Source of the DNA: Desulfuromonas sp. SDB
GTDB lineage: Bacteria > SDB-A
Direction: 5' to 3'
Assembly (NCBI GenBank): GCA_001412365.1
Contig: LKUE01000212.1
Location: 1 to 22,534, forward strand
Length of the DNA stretch: 22,534 nt
The notes beneath the pieces were generated by a model. That model had not been told where the DNA came from and did no database searches. It saw only the letters and a list, made by a program, of their open reading frames with translations. The position numbers were made by a program, and so were the translations under genes. Positions within the stretch are counted from its first letter, which is position 1; every line of letters starts with the position of its first letter. Below, one piece after another: positions 6,226 to 14,706 of this stretch.

Positions 6226-7179
6226 ATGAATCCATTTGTTAAGTATTATGTAAAAGTGCTAAATTATATGAGGTTAAGACATAATTTTACCTTAAAAATA
6301 TTGGCTCTGCTGGCTGCAATATTATTATGGGTTTATGTAGTACTGCAGAGTCCGGTAAAAAAATCTATTTATGTACCTATAGTAATTAACAAACCTGATT
6401 CATTGATCTACGATATAGACCCTCCTGATTCAGTGAGATTTGACTTTACCGGAAGTGCCCGTAATTTCTTTTTATTTGACCGGTTTGGCGATCCTACAAT
6501 AATACTTGATTTGAAGAATTTGAATATTGGTGAAAACATTGTTGAAATAAATCCCGATCAAATTATCTATTCAGACTGGATCGGAGTAAAACCGGAAGGA
6601 GAAACTTATATCAGATTGTCTTTTCAGAAAGTGGATAGCATTTACCTTCCAATTTCCTCGGAGGAGGTAATAACTCTTCCTCCCGGATGGGTAATAACGG
6701 ATCAAAAAATAACCCCTGAAATGGTATGGATAGTGGGAGGAAGCCAGGATTTAGAGGATTTATCCAAGGTGGGGATATCTTTGAACAAATGCAGTGTTGA
6801 TGAATTTAACTATAGTTATATCTGCTCCACTACGGTTGAAATACCTGAATATCCTACCCATCCTTACACCAATGATTCTGTAGTTGAAGTAAATGTTTCT
6901 ATGGACTCAATGATTTTTTATCAACTTAAACTTCCGGTAATAATTGACCAGAACCAACAATTTCAAGCCATGCCCGATTCGGTCAGGTTTTATGCCATTG
7001 TCCCCTCCCGTAATTTTCAGGATTTAGTGGATACAGATATTAGACTAAGCGTGGATGTACGAAGATCTGATATTCACTCTTCACCTTTGATTCTTGACTG
7101 GAATGGTGAGGAATTAGCTGAAACCAGCTGGTTGGAGATAAACAAAGTAAAACTAATTCCGGTAGAAGAGGTGGAATAA
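6226..7179 (+). CDS. YbbR-domain membrane-anchored protein (CdaR-like)
   Basis: A 317-residue protein. A basic N-terminus (MRLRHNFTLK) precedes one transmembrane helix at about residues 22-42 (LKILALLAAILLWVYVVLQS), followed by an extracytoplasmic region of beta-rich YbbR-type repeats. The segments SPVKKSIYVPIVINKP, PPDSVRFDFTGSARN and LPPGWVITDQKITPEMVWIVGGSQDL are typical of the family. In Firmicutes YbbR/CdaR binds and modulates the diadenylate cyclase CdaA, and the two genes are usually adjacent. Here no cdaA lies next to it; the next gene is tsaD, in the same reading frame directly after the TAA. The start ATG at 6226 has an AAGGA about 12 bases upstream. The family assignment is good, but a direct role in c-di-AMP signalling is inference. 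Confidence 0.82.
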   Translation: MNPFVKYYVKVLNYMRLRHNFTLKILALLAAILLWVYVVLQSPVKKSIYVPIVINKPDSLIYDIDPPDSVRFDFTGSARNFFLFDRFGDPTIILDLKNLNIGENIVEINPDQIIYSDWIGVKPEGETYIRLSFQKVDSIYLPISSEEVITLPPGWVITDQKITPEMVWIVGGSQDLEDLSKVGISLNKCSVDEFNYSYICSTTVEIPEYPTHPYTNDSVVEVNVSMDSMIFYQLKLPVIIDQNQQFQAMPDSVRFYAIVPSRNFQDLVDTDIRLSVDVRRSDIHSSPLILDWNGEELAETSWLEINKVKLIPVEEVE

Positions 7180-8181
7180 ATTTATACCCTGGGCATTGAA
7201 ACCTCCTGCGATGACACTGCAGTAGCTCTTTTACTGGATGAAAAAGTTATTTTTCACCAAAAAAAAGTTCAACTAATACATACTAATTTTGGAGGAGTTG
7301 TCCCTGAACTGGCCAGCCGTGAACATCTAGCTTATGTACAGAAGTTGATTGATCAGTTAATTAATGATTCAGGGATATCTGTTGAAACTATTAATTTAAT
7401 AAGCGCCACTAGAGGCCCGGGTTTAATTGGATCGCTGTTGGTAGGATATACTTATGCAAAAACCCTCGCCTACCAGTTAAAAATTCCATTAATGGGAATT
7501 AACCACCTGGAAGGGCATATTTATGCGGGGATTATGAATAATACTGATTTGCAGTTTCCCTTTCTAGCCCTTATTATTTCCGGAGGTAATACTTTATTGT
7601 TGGAAGTTCGGGATCACGGATGCTACAAGTATTTAGGACAAACCAGAGACGATGCAGCAGGAGAAGCGATTGATAAGGTGGGAACAATGTTAAACTTAAG
7701 TTATCCCGCCGGACCATCCATGGAAAAACTTGCCAGGGAAGGAAATCCAGGTATGTTTAAATTTCCGGTGCCCAATCCTCCCCAATTTGATTTTAGCTAC
7801 TCCGGACTGAAAACAGCAGTGCTGTACAAGCTTAGAGAGATGAATGAAAAACAGATAATTAAGAGCAGAGCTGATATCGCCGCTACTTTTTTAGATAGCT
7901 TGATAAGATCTCTGATTTTGAAATTAGATAAAGCCTGTAAACAATATAATTATACCTCCATATTAATTACAGGGGGAGTGGCAGTAAATTCTATTTTGCA
8001 AAACAAAATCCGCAAAAAATTTACTGCCCGGGGAGTAAAAGTGTTTTTCCCGGAACCCCAATGGTGCGGTGATAATGCAGCAATGATTGCATATTTGGGA
8101 AGATTAAAATACCTCCGGGGTGAATCTCCGGATAAACTAGATCAATCTGCTGATGCTCAATTGAAACTGGATTACTGCTGA
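7180..8181 (+). CDS. tsaD: tRNA N6-adenosine threonylcarbamoyltransferase TsaD, apparent AUU start
   Basis: The gene product transfers threonylcarbamoyl to A37 of ANN-decoding tRNAs, with TsaB/TsaE. From base 7180 the reading frame gives YTLGIETSCDDTAVALL, the conserved TsaD N-terminus. It continues with GVVPELASREH, GPGLIGSLLVGYTYAK, metal ligands in HLEGHIYAG, SGGNT, DDAAGEAIDKVG, FSYSGLKTA, ITGGVAVNS and WCGDNAAMIA. The length from 7180 is 333 residues, normal for the family. The first ATG (7345) would delete the ATPase motif, so the start must be earlier. The only codons available after the ybbR TAA are ATT at 7180 or CTG at 7189. An SD GAGGTGG at 7168-7174 lies 5 bases before ATT, so an AUU start coupled to ybbR is the best reading. 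It converges with deoC and overlaps it by 10 bases. Confidence 0.9.
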   Translation: MYTLGIETSCDDTAVALLLDEKVIFHQKKVQLIHTNFGGVVPELASREHLAYVQKLIDQLINDSGISVETINLISATRGPGLIGSLLVGYTYAKTLAYQLKIPLMGINHLEGHIYAGIMNNTDLQFPFLALIISGGNTLLLEVRDHGCYKYLGQTRDDAAGEAIDKVGTMLNLSYPAGPSMEKLAREGNPGMFKFPVPNPPQFDFSYSGLKTAVLYKLREMNEKQIIKSRADIAATFLDSLIRSLILKLDKACKQYNYTSILITGGVAVNSILQNKIRKKFTARGVKVFFPEPQWCGDNAAMIAYLGRLKYLRGESPDKLDQSADAQLKLDYC

Positions 8182-11506: not shown

Positions 11507-12100
11507 GTGAAAAAAATCCGGTTGATGTTGCTATTTATAATTATAGTAATTTTAGTAGCTACTTGCGGTTCAACTTCAGATAACAATCAAAATGAAAGTG
11601 AAAACAACACTGAAACCAGTACATCCGGTTCATATTACATTATAAAATCCTTTTCCAATTCAGGGATGAGCAAAGGAGATATTTTTACTGATTTAGTTTG
11701 GAATGATGCAGACCAGAATGAAGTTTCTTTAATAGGTTTAGGAGCCAACTGTTATGTAATTGACATTTGGGCTACCTGGTGTGGGCCCTGCCGGCAGGAA
11801 ATTCCACATCTCAATGATCTTCAAGACGAATTTGAGGAGCAAGGTTTAGTGGTGGTGGGAATAAGCATTGATGACAATCCTGCAGCCCTGCCTCCATTTA
11901 TTGAAAGTATGAATATTAATTATATGATTCTACAAACCTCAGATAATGAGTTGATAAATATGATTCTTTCTCCGGGGGGAGGAGCAATTCCCCAAACCTA
12001 TATCCTGGACAAGCAGGGCAAGATAATTGAGCATTACGTCGGATATGCGCCATCTATCGGTGAACAAATCCATAATCAAGTGAGTGATTTATTAAAATAA
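11507..12100 (+). CDS. TlpA/ResA-like thioredoxin-fold lipoprotein
   Basis: A 197-residue protein. A lipoprotein signal peptide (basic MKKIR, hydrophobic LMLLFIIIVIL, lipobox VATC with Cys20) is followed by an Asn/Ser/Glu-rich spacer to about residue 45. The thioredoxin domain has the active site W91-C-G-P-C95, the following RQEIPHLNDL helix, VVVGISIDDN, and the cis-Pro loop GAIPQTYILD near 162. Such proteins reduce disulfides on periplasmic targets, for example apocytochrome c, or act in envelope redox maintenance. The start is GTG at 11507 with a strong SD AAAGGAGG. A Thr at -1 of the lipobox is unusual but tolerated. No cytochrome maturation genes are nearby, so the substrate is unknown; the Cys-rich start of the next gene product might be one. 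Confidence 0.9.
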   Translation: MKKIRLMLLFIIIVILVATCGSTSDNNQNESENNTETSTSGSYYIIKSFSNSGMSKGDIFTDLVWNDADQNEVSLIGLGANCYVIDIWATWCGPCRQEIPHLNDLQDEFEEQGLVVVGISIDDNPAALPPFIESMNINYMILQTSDNELINMILSPGGGAIPQTYILDKQGKIIEHYVGYAPSIGEQIHNQVSDLLK

Positions 12101-12105
12101 AAGAC

Positions 12106-12501
12106 ATAAAATTTTTATGGTTATGGATACTGCTCAGTAGTTTCATGTGCTCATGTGGGCAACAGGAGATACAGGAAAGTTTGGAAGAAGTAATGGGAGA
12201 AACTGCTATTGAAACTGTAGATTTGGCTAAGGAAAGAATGGTAAAAAACAACATGAGACTACTGCAGCTGAGTATAGAAGAATTTGCCTTAGAACAGCAG
12301 GGGGGGGGGACTTATCCTAGTTCAATTTCTGAAATTGATTTACCTAATGCCTCCAATCCTTACAGTAATTCTAAGCCTGCATTTGTTGATGGAAGCCCCA
12401 CTGAGCAGGGTCAGGTAGGTTATATTGGTGATGGGAATTCCTATCAGATTTTAGGATATGGGAGTAATTCCTTATTAGATTTTAAACTCAGTAAACCTTA
12501 A
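12106..12501 (+). CDS. Small lipoprotein with pseudopilin-like domain, apparent AUA start
   Basis: From ATG 12145 the product (118 aa) starts inside a signal sequence. The frame is open upstream of that ATG, and reading from ATA at 12106 gives KFLWLWILLSSFMCSCGQQ, a complete lipoprotein signal peptide (lipobox MCSC, Cys17) and a 131-residue precursor. No ATG, GTG or TTG exists in that stretch, so an AUA start (or CTG at 12130) is implied; no clear SD is seen, but the tlpA stop is only 5 bases upstream. The mature part, with NNMRLLQLSIEEFALEQ, GGTYPSS, a short NPYS and GQVGYIGDGNSYQILGYGS, resembles the globular half of type II secretion/type IV pseudopilins, without their prepilin N-terminus. 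A run of 10 G lies inside. The family assignment is tentative. Confidence 0.65.
   Translation: MKFLWLWILLSSFMCSCGQQEIQESLEEVMGETAIETVDLAKERMVKNNMRLLQLSIEEFALEQQGGGTYPSSISEIDLPNASNPYSNSKPAFVDGSPTEQGQVGYIGDGNSYQILGYGSNSLLDFKLSKP
12300..12309 (+). repeat. G10 homopolymer inside the small lipoprotein gene
   Basis: Ten consecutive G residues encode most of QQGGG. With ten Gs the frame is open. Losing one G leads to a stop after about 35 altered codons, and gaining one G gives a stop after three codons (TAG). The tract is exceptional in this AT-rich window and has the form of a slipped-strand contingency tract. Confidence 0.95.
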
Positions 12502-12502
12502 T

Positions 12503-13231
12503 ATGATGATCAGACCCTTGATTAATATTGACCGGAAATCATCGGCATATATATCAGATTACCTGGCTAAGTGCAGTGATCTATTAACTGAATACTTTTT
12601 TAAGTCCAATCCATCGGTTGTATTGTGGTCTTTACAGGGATTGGAAAACAGAATAATTGCGGCGGTAGATGATCTTAGGAAGATAATCTACATACAAGCG
12701 GATAATCCGAAAATAATTGACCTGTTTATGCAGAATTTTGCAAAAGTCAATCCTTTGAATTCTTACCGCATTGATATTCCTGAAAATCTGATTTCCTATT
12801 TAAATTATCATAATATCCCTAAAGATTTTATAGAAGTTTACTCTATATTGCAATATACAGAGGATCTAGCTCCTGGCACTGGACGTCCAGTGGGAACAAC
12901 AAAAATTATCCGAAACAGTAAAGGCATACCCATGGAGGCAATAATTTGCCAAAACAATCAAACTTTGGCCTGTTCTTCAGTGTTTTGGTTATCCGATAAC
13001 GCTGCTGAAATATCCATTGAATGTTTAAACTGCCAGCAAGGGGCTGATTTTTTGATTAATGTTTTATCTGCCCATTCATATGAATTAAACAAAATCGGAA
13101 TTATTCCCATTTACTTAGTGTCTGAAACAAATTTTCATTCGAGGAGACTTGCAGAAAAAGTAGGATTTGTGGATACAGGGAAAAGATTAATTGAAATTAA
13201 TGGCTTTTCTAACTGGAGAACAATATGTTAG
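12503..13231 (+). CDS. GNAT-like acetyltransferase family protein
   Basis: A 242-residue protein, not secreted. The C-terminal ~110 residues resemble a GNAT fold: a strand with QTLACSSVFWLSDNAAEISIECL, then IGIIPIYLVSETNFHSRRLAEKVGFVDTGKRL, matching the GNAT motif in which Asn and Ser precede a helix ending in LAEKxGF. The usual acetyl-CoA pyrophosphate loop (Q/RxxGxG/A) is not clear, so activity is uncertain. The N-terminal half (SNPSVVLWSLQGLENRIIAAVDD, then KIIYIQADNPKIIDLFMQNF) could be a degenerate second GNAT-like unit. It starts with ATG-ATG at 12503/12506, one base after the lipoprotein stop, and overlaps the next gene by 7 bases, so it is within a coupled operon. Its substrate is unknown. 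Confidence 0.7.
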   Translation: MMIRPLINIDRKSSAYISDYLAKCSDLLTEYFFKSNPSVVLWSLQGLENRIIAAVDDLRKIIYIQADNPKIIDLFMQNFAKVNPLNSYRIDIPENLISYLNYHNIPKDFIEVYSILQYTEDLAPGTGRPVGTTKIIRNSKGIPMEAIICQNNQTLACSSVFWLSDNAAEISIECLNCQQGADFLINVLSAHSYELNKIGIIPIYLVSETNFHSRRLAEKVGFVDTGKRLIEINGFSNWRTIC

Positions 13232-14706
13232 GTGATCAGATAAAAAATAAACTAAAAGAAGTGCAGAAACTTCGTAAGCTGGGGAAATTCGATGAGGCAT
13301 TGGCGGAAATCAATAAAATAGACATCAGCGGTGAAAATATTGAAAAAGGGGTAGCTGCATATGTTCTTTACCAAAAAGGCTTAATTTTAAGTTCACTAGG
13401 AGATACTCAGAATGCCCATCAGACTTTTCAAAAAGCGCTGGATGTATCTCAGTCTTCCACCCAGAGGATGATTATTAAATCTGGTGACCTTAAAAACCAA
13501 AAAATGATATTAGATGCTTTTTACATACTTCAGGAATTAATTGCCAAGAACAAGAAATCCAGCGGTAAGAATATGGCTGAAGTATTGTCGGAGGAACTTC
13601 TAAAGAATGTGGATTTAAAAATTGCATTGAATTTGCTGGAAAAATTCAAGGGCAGAAATTTTTCAGAGGAATTATTTACTGCTTTTGAGAAACTAGCTAA
13701 AAAGAATCCTCATGACGCTTTTATATGGTCAATTTTAGGTGATTTCTATGTTTATTATGATGATTATAAGAAAGCATTGGAAGCTTATAAAAAGGGTTAT
13801 GACAGTCCCTACAAGAAGTTTGACAGCTGTACAGGGATAATTAACTGCCATATTAATTTTCGAAATATTGACCAGGCTAAACAGTATCTCAGCATTGCCC
13901 GGAAAATTGCATCTGATCAGTCTCAGCAGGAAAAAATAGAGGATTTCAATCAGATTATTCAATCTTTAGAACAAAACCAGGAACTGCAGACGGTGAAAAG
14001 TGGTGATGTAGAAGATGATTTTGAAAAATCTCCACCCCCTCCTGATCTCACCGCTAAAACTGCAGATGCAAAACCAGCTGATAAAGAATTGCGGGAAAAG
14101 CAAACTGTACCGGAGCAAGAGTCATCTGCTGAAAAGCAACAACAGGAACAAGATGAATTTCCTGAATTTATTCATGACAACCGTCTGGAGATGTATAAAA
14201 CTGATACTGTCTCTACTCAACAAAGCACTCCTCCCGCACAATCCGAAGATATGACTGAAAAGCAAGCTGAACAACCACCTCCTCCCCCTGAAACGGAAAC
14301 GGAACAACTAGAACAAGCAGAATTAGATGAAGATCAGACTGCAAATGGCGAGGAAGAGTCAGAAGAAAAAACTGAGAGTCTCACCAAAAGAACATCTCGG
14401 ATAAAGAGGAGACGCAGGTCTGCATCCAAGATTCAGTCAACAGATACGGTACCTCCACCTCCTCCTGAACCGGAGATTGATCAACAGGAATATCCTGAAA
14501 AATATTTTGAAAAGCATGATAATATCGAAGATATAAAGAAAGTTGCCATTTCTGAACAAAAGCAAGTTAAAAAGAAAAAATCGGTCCGGGAGAAAAATTA
14601 TATTAAAACCACCACTATTAGCTGGTTGTTGACTGTAATTATGCTGATCTTTTTTATATCTGGTTTATTTACCAGCCATCTGTTGATCCAGTATCTTTTT
14701 GATTAA
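13225..14706 (+). CDS. Tail-anchored TPR protein with polyproline linkers
   Basis: A 493-residue protein with no N-terminal signal. Residues ~1-250 contain TPR-like helix pairs, for example KLGKFDEALAEINKI near 18, GDTQNAHQTFQKALDVS near 58 and DYYKKALEAYKKGYDSPYK-type repeats near 180-195. Residues ~260-460 are a disordered, Glu/Gln/Pro-rich linker with three proline runs (PPPP at 14032-14043, PPPPP at 14275-14289 and 14452-14466) and a basic patch RIKRRRR near 393. The last ~28 residues are a hydrophobic helix (SWLLTVIMLIFFISGLF...) that would anchor the C-terminus in the inner membrane, leaving the TPR part in the cytoplasm. The proline runs predict EF-P-dependent translation. It overlaps the GNAT gene. 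No family name is recognised. Confidence 0.78.
   Translation: MLGDQIKNKLKEVQKLRKLGKFDEALAEINKIDISGENIEKGVAAYVLYQKGLILSSLGDTQNAHQTFQKALDVSQSSTQRMIIKSGDLKNQKMILDAFYILQELIAKNKKSSGKNMAEVLSEELLKNVDLKIALNLLEKFKGRNFSEELFTAFEKLAKKNPHDAFIWSILGDFYVYYDDYKKALEAYKKGYDSPYKKFDSCTGIINCHINFRNIDQAKQYLSIARKIASDQSQQEKIEDFNQIIQSLEQNQELQTVKSGDVEDDFEKSPPPPDLTAKTADAKPADKELREKQTVPEQESSAEKQQQEQDEFPEFIHDNRLEMYKTDTVSTQQSTPPAQSEDMTEKQAEQPPPPPETETEQLEQAELDEDQTANGEEESEEKTESLTKRTSRIKRRRRSASKIQSTDTVPPPPPEPEIDQQEYPEKYFEKHDNIEDIKKVAISEQKQVKKKKSVREKNYIKTTTISWLLTVIMLIFFISGLFTSHLLIQYLFD

Follow-up and report, generated by a model that had tools for sequence, protein, structure and literature searches.

The window, that is, the whole stretch of DNA analysed (22,534 nucleotides of a contig of the uncultured bacterium Desulfuromonas sp. 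SDB), carries a ybbR-like gene and, immediately behind its stop codon, tsaD (Table 1). The junction reads CCG GTA GAA GAG GTG GAA TAA / ATT TAT ACC CTG GGC ATT GAA ACC TCC TGC GAT GAC ACT, with the TAA and the ATT in one frame, and the tsaD frame runs on in phase after the ybbR stop. Translation from position 7180 yields IYTLGIETSCDDT, with 333 residues in all. A first-pass annotation had described ybbR as ending at this TAA with ATT and the conserved TsaD N-terminus next in frame, no ATG, GTG or TTG from the stop to the conserved motif, and GAGGTGG at 7168-7174, five bases (AATAA) ahead of the ATT; sequence, translation and open frame bear out all of this. Its placing of the first ATG at 7345 was mistaken, as the codon there is TTG and ATG first occurs in frame at 7492. 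Neither the open frame before the ATT nor the 55 codons after it hold an ATG, GTG or TTG that could give the conserved TsaD N-terminus, which would be lost with a start at TTG 7345 (55 residues) or at ATG 7492 (104 residues). Predicted RNA structure at the tsaD start is nothing unusual (z-score +1.2).

Table 1 Features of the ybbR-tsaD locus and other genes with candidate non-canonical starts
Feature	Location	Position	Strand	Basis or remark
ybbR-like gene, 317 aa	window	6226..7179	+	ORF; position shared, and C-terminus aligned, with three genomes of the same family
Shine-Dalgarno-like GAGGTG	window	7168..7173	+	6-base match to AAAGGAGGTGATC
TAA stop of ybbR, with no base between it and the ATT	window	7177..7179	+	sequence
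ATT, probable start of tsaD	window	7180..7182	+	aligns with ATG of G002 and G003; canonical start absent in the open frame before and for 55 codons after
tsaD, 333 codons plus TGA	window	7180..8181	+	TIGR03723, PF00814; sole TsaD of the genome
TTG, first canonical in-frame codon and the ORF finder's tsaD start	window	7345..7347	+	ORF list
Lipoprotein-like gene	window	12091-12501	+	only early canonical start, ATG 12145, within signal peptide region
infC (L137)	G000:C13	4584-5180	+	ATT after AAGGAGG
Nicotinamidase/isochorismatase-like gene (L138)	G000:C25	15643-16188	+	42 codons free of canonical starts; ATC preceded by GGAGG
Second miaA-like gene (L255)	G001:C60	about 12498-13430	-	CTG where G002 and G003 have GTG

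Judged by its profile matches, the 333-residue product is TsaD: it scores 374.7 bits against the TsaD equivalog TIGR03723 (cut-off 296.1), with residues 4-310 covering profile positions 2-312 of 314, and 285.9 bits against PF00814. The genome, a fragmented draft of 3.14 Mb in 433 contigs that is 98.7% complete, holds only one TsaD. A weaker and shorter second PF00814 match, on contig C384, may be read as TsaB from its N-terminus and size, and a DNA search of the assembly returned neither a second tsaD copy nor a variant of the ybbR-tsaD junction. The tsaD frame is open throughout and keeps the invariant residues. For the upstream product, searches against Pfam and NCBIfam profiles gave no match reaching 1e-3, and the name ybbR is applied on position and resemblance only.

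Three genomes of the same family, all of another genus (G001, G002 and G003), were used for comparison. The order ispG, ybbR, tsaD, deoC is complete in two of them and matches in the third over the part of the contig that was read, and ybbR and tsaD are separate genes in all three. In G002 and G003 the codon that aligns exactly with the ATT is ATG, while G001 has an ATG start five codons upstream; the weak tsaD start is thus not conserved. The first-pass annotation had regarded an ATG at this position in related genomes as evidence against AUU initiation. Such an ATG is indeed present in two, but as these belong to another genus and their TsaD is 54-56% identical, it does not refute ATT in the SDB bacterium. 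As to closer named relatives, a first scan of genome contigs found none, and the TsaDs from a second were all distant, with identities no higher than 50%; viral contigs contained six distant TsaDs and plasmids no TsaD match.

Among 128 TsaD open frames scanned, one of them a second copy of this locus, a canonical start before the motif was absent only here, and in two others it lay only farther out. By a strict pattern search, the same tsaD position holds ATG in 85 of 290 genomes and ATT in 3 of 386; the other two ATT matches proved to have ordinary starts, with ATG four codons upstream. In an unrelated tsaD (L030, of G036), the nearest canonical start lies 36 codons before the motif, and GGAGG followed by CTG four codons ahead of the motif marks a possible CTG start.

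The ATT is a near-cognate codon with a properly spaced Shine-Dalgarno (SD) sequence, eight bases separating the aligned last G of GGAGG from the tsaD start. This was scored against AAAGGAGGTGATC, the organism's own anti-SD being unread and the 16S 3' end absent from the assembly (on contig C65, the contig end cuts the 16S rRNA gene at about 902). Among ORFs of the same genome, a match of at least six bases at start-like spacing precedes 1.5% of 6,026 internal ATT codons vs. 22% of 304 first-ATG starts. YbbR of the relatives ends in IPK or IPM, whereas YbbR here runs on with VEEVE, and these five extra codons carry the tsaD SD.

We consider it likely (probability about 0.8) that tsaD is translated from AUU 7180, supported by its SD and by termination-reinitiation after ybbR. 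AUU initiation is the best supported reading because the codon matches exactly the position of the relatives' ATG, the SD is good and infC starts at ATT in the same genome; on the sequence evidence, the AUU start of this essential gene is probably natural. The ATT immediately following the TAA recalls the stop-start adjacency of termination-reinitiation pairs. In the proposed mechanism, 30S subunits recruited by GAGGTG, together with ribosomes finishing ybbR, would place initiator tRNA on the AUU, and TsaD made in this way would begin (M)YTLGIETSCDDT. The outcome would be a low TsaD synthesis coupled to that of YbbR, and IF3 would restrain AUU initiation at tsaD, as it does with E. coli infC. 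Direct t6A feedback through initiator tRNA was set aside, since in bacteria this tRNA is not known to carry t6A.

To look for comparable genes, we sampled 448 ORFs from 542 kb of stretches of the same genome, in which the four top coding scores upstream of the first canonical start belonged to tsaD, infC, the isochorismatase/nicotinamidase-like gene and L167; the last was rejected as a probable gene fragment with no family match. The infC frame is open from a stop with ATTAAGGAGGGAATAATTAAAAAATTC and reaches its first canonical start only after 59 codons; for this reason infC is concluded to start at ATT behind the strong SD AAGGAGG. Weak infC starts recurred among the 33 IF3 genes compared. 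The nicotinamidase-like gene reads GGGAGGACAACT ATC ACT GAA, with the ATC overlapping the TGA of the upstream gene (ATCACTGA), and apparently starts at this ATC; relatives of this gene from other phyla start canonically. The lipoprotein-like gene probably provides a second non-canonical start within the window, at ATA 12097, which overlaps the upstream TAA, or at ATT 12091, because the signal peptides of its G002 and G003 orthologs are complete. In G001, the CTG of the second miaA-like gene overlaps the upstream TGA; the start could instead be an ATT three codons further on. A DEAD-box helicase frame of the SDB genome (L159, contig C45, 2-1369, minus strand) has no canonical start near its N-terminus; one indel in the A/T-rich stretch at its start would restore an ATG, and this explanation and AUU initiation are equally likely. 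Low-GC mixed contigs yielded no non-canonical starts among 84, a difference that is not significant, and the rate controls are weak: E. coli matches resemble shadow ORFs, and the method misses E. coli infC, which has an early GTG.

These genes bear on the chief competing explanation, namely that the ATT is an assembly consensus error or a minority-strain base and that the real codon and gene are ordinary. ATT is one base from ATG, all three relatives start tsaD with ATG and the genome is a 433-contig draft, and the first-pass annotation had asked that an error at base 7182 be excluded. Since infC starts at ATT and the nicotinamidase-like gene apparently at ATC, an error at the tsaD codon becomes less likely, although the chance of one is not removed. 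An independent gene showing the same pattern, with ATC, within a sample of 448 ORFs argues against error, as does our estimate of how many start errors of this kind 448 ORFs should contain: about 0.01 to 0.1, at an assumed error rate of 1e-5 to 1e-4 per base. The assembly yielded no variant copy, and the rest of the tsaD gene body is intact. On balance we regard an error as unlikely.

Other readings of the frame fare worse. CTG 7189 is near-cognate and in frame, but it is 15 bases downstream of GAGGTG, and starting there would cost the protein three N-terminal residues that the relatives keep; readthrough of the TAA into a YbbR-TsaD fusion draws on the shared frame of the two genes, which are however separate in the three relatives; and TTG 7345, the start reported by the ORF finder, has no SD and loses the LGIETSCDDT segment. 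Together these are very improbable. Least credible is a start decaying toward pseudogenisation after a recent loss-of-start mutation: the ATT does appear derived compared with the relatives' ATG, but this is the sole tsaD of a 98.7% complete genome, its frame is open with invariant residues kept, and TsaD is essential in most bacteria.

A family-wide cause was also considered. In IF3 of the SDB bacterium, G001 and G002, the C-terminal domain is longer by a 14-residue insertion, placed immediately behind FLEEG of E. coli IF3 or the equivalent residues. The other 30 aligned IF3s and E. coli IF3 lack it, and IF3 match lengths over 60 genomes agree with this pattern. It is conceivable, but distinctly doubtful, that start-codon selection has been loosened in this family and that the insertion alters start discrimination. 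What points this way is the combination of infC, tsaD (ATT), the nicotinamidase-like gene (ATC), probably the lipoprotein-like gene (ATA or ATT), the miaA-like gene of G001 (CTG) and the IF3 insertion itself, counts so small that they offer only a lead.

Returning to AUU initiation of tsaD, the first-pass proposal was that of AUU initiation or termination-reinitiation, perhaps kept low on purpose. Its first part holds up, as AUU probably helped by reinitiation, given the ATG position, the SD and infC; the purpose stays conjectural, as the nearest relatives compared use ATG and so do not share the weak start. A selected weak start would be indistinguishable from one left by drift or a recent polymorphism, and low TsaD output may be selected or simply tolerated. 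The efficiency of AUU in E. coli is quoted as about 0.3% (PMC10666635), and in S. aureus reporters AUU and AUA starts, which extended SDs accompany, gave about 10% of AUG output (PMC13009471). So poor an efficiency would be surprising for an essential gene and counts against an AUU start. On the other side, re-initiation in E. coli was raised more than threefold by an SD and lowered by excess IF3 (PMC2268962), and AUU, AUA and GUC starts behind strong SDs have precedents (PMC13009471, PMC5472188).

Non-canonical starts are known for few bacterial genes besides infC, and gene finders limited to ATG, GTG and TTG truncate or miss them; conserved N-termini upstream of the first canonical start would provide a simple screen. 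If the AUU start of tsaD is real, it would be expected to keep TsaD scarce and would link t6A synthesis to initiation stringency and to the translation of ybbR. A literature search returned nothing connecting tsaD with an AUU start.

Several known systems resemble tsaD in part. E. coli pcnB, an RNA-metabolism gene other than infC, starts at AUU, and tsaD shares with it an AUU start on a non-infC gene of RNA metabolism. With infC, which starts at AUU, AUC or AUA, it shares an AUH start, a strong SD and a position close behind an upstream gene; however, the infC product feeds back on infC itself, whereas TsaD has no known bacterial role in start selection, and the weak start of infC is widely conserved while that of tsaD is not. 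Weak infC starts are established, with ATT in E. coli and ATC in Streptomyces (PMC5472188). Streptomyces sigR is likewise a gene other than infC whose start is non-canonical and preceded by an extensive SD (AGGAGGTG), but its codon is GUC, conserved in 32 of 34 Streptomyces, its role is proven experimentally and its start is repressed by IF3 (PMC5472188). In S. aureus, cvfC1 (AUU) and ccpN (AUA) resemble tsaD in that a weak start is offset by a strong SD, and in a low output, which is predicted for tsaD; they differ in having ribosome profiling evidence, conservation and an extended SD longer than that of tsaD (PMC13009471). Termination-reinitiation pairs have the stop adjoining the start, as in TAA/ATT here, and an SD that boosts re-initiation, but those studied mostly use canonical starts (PMC10666635, PMC2268962). 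From its sequence, tsaD of the SDB bacterium would join the known class of weak AUU-type starts exemplified by infC, sigR and cvfC1, as a member whose weak start the relatives compared do not share.
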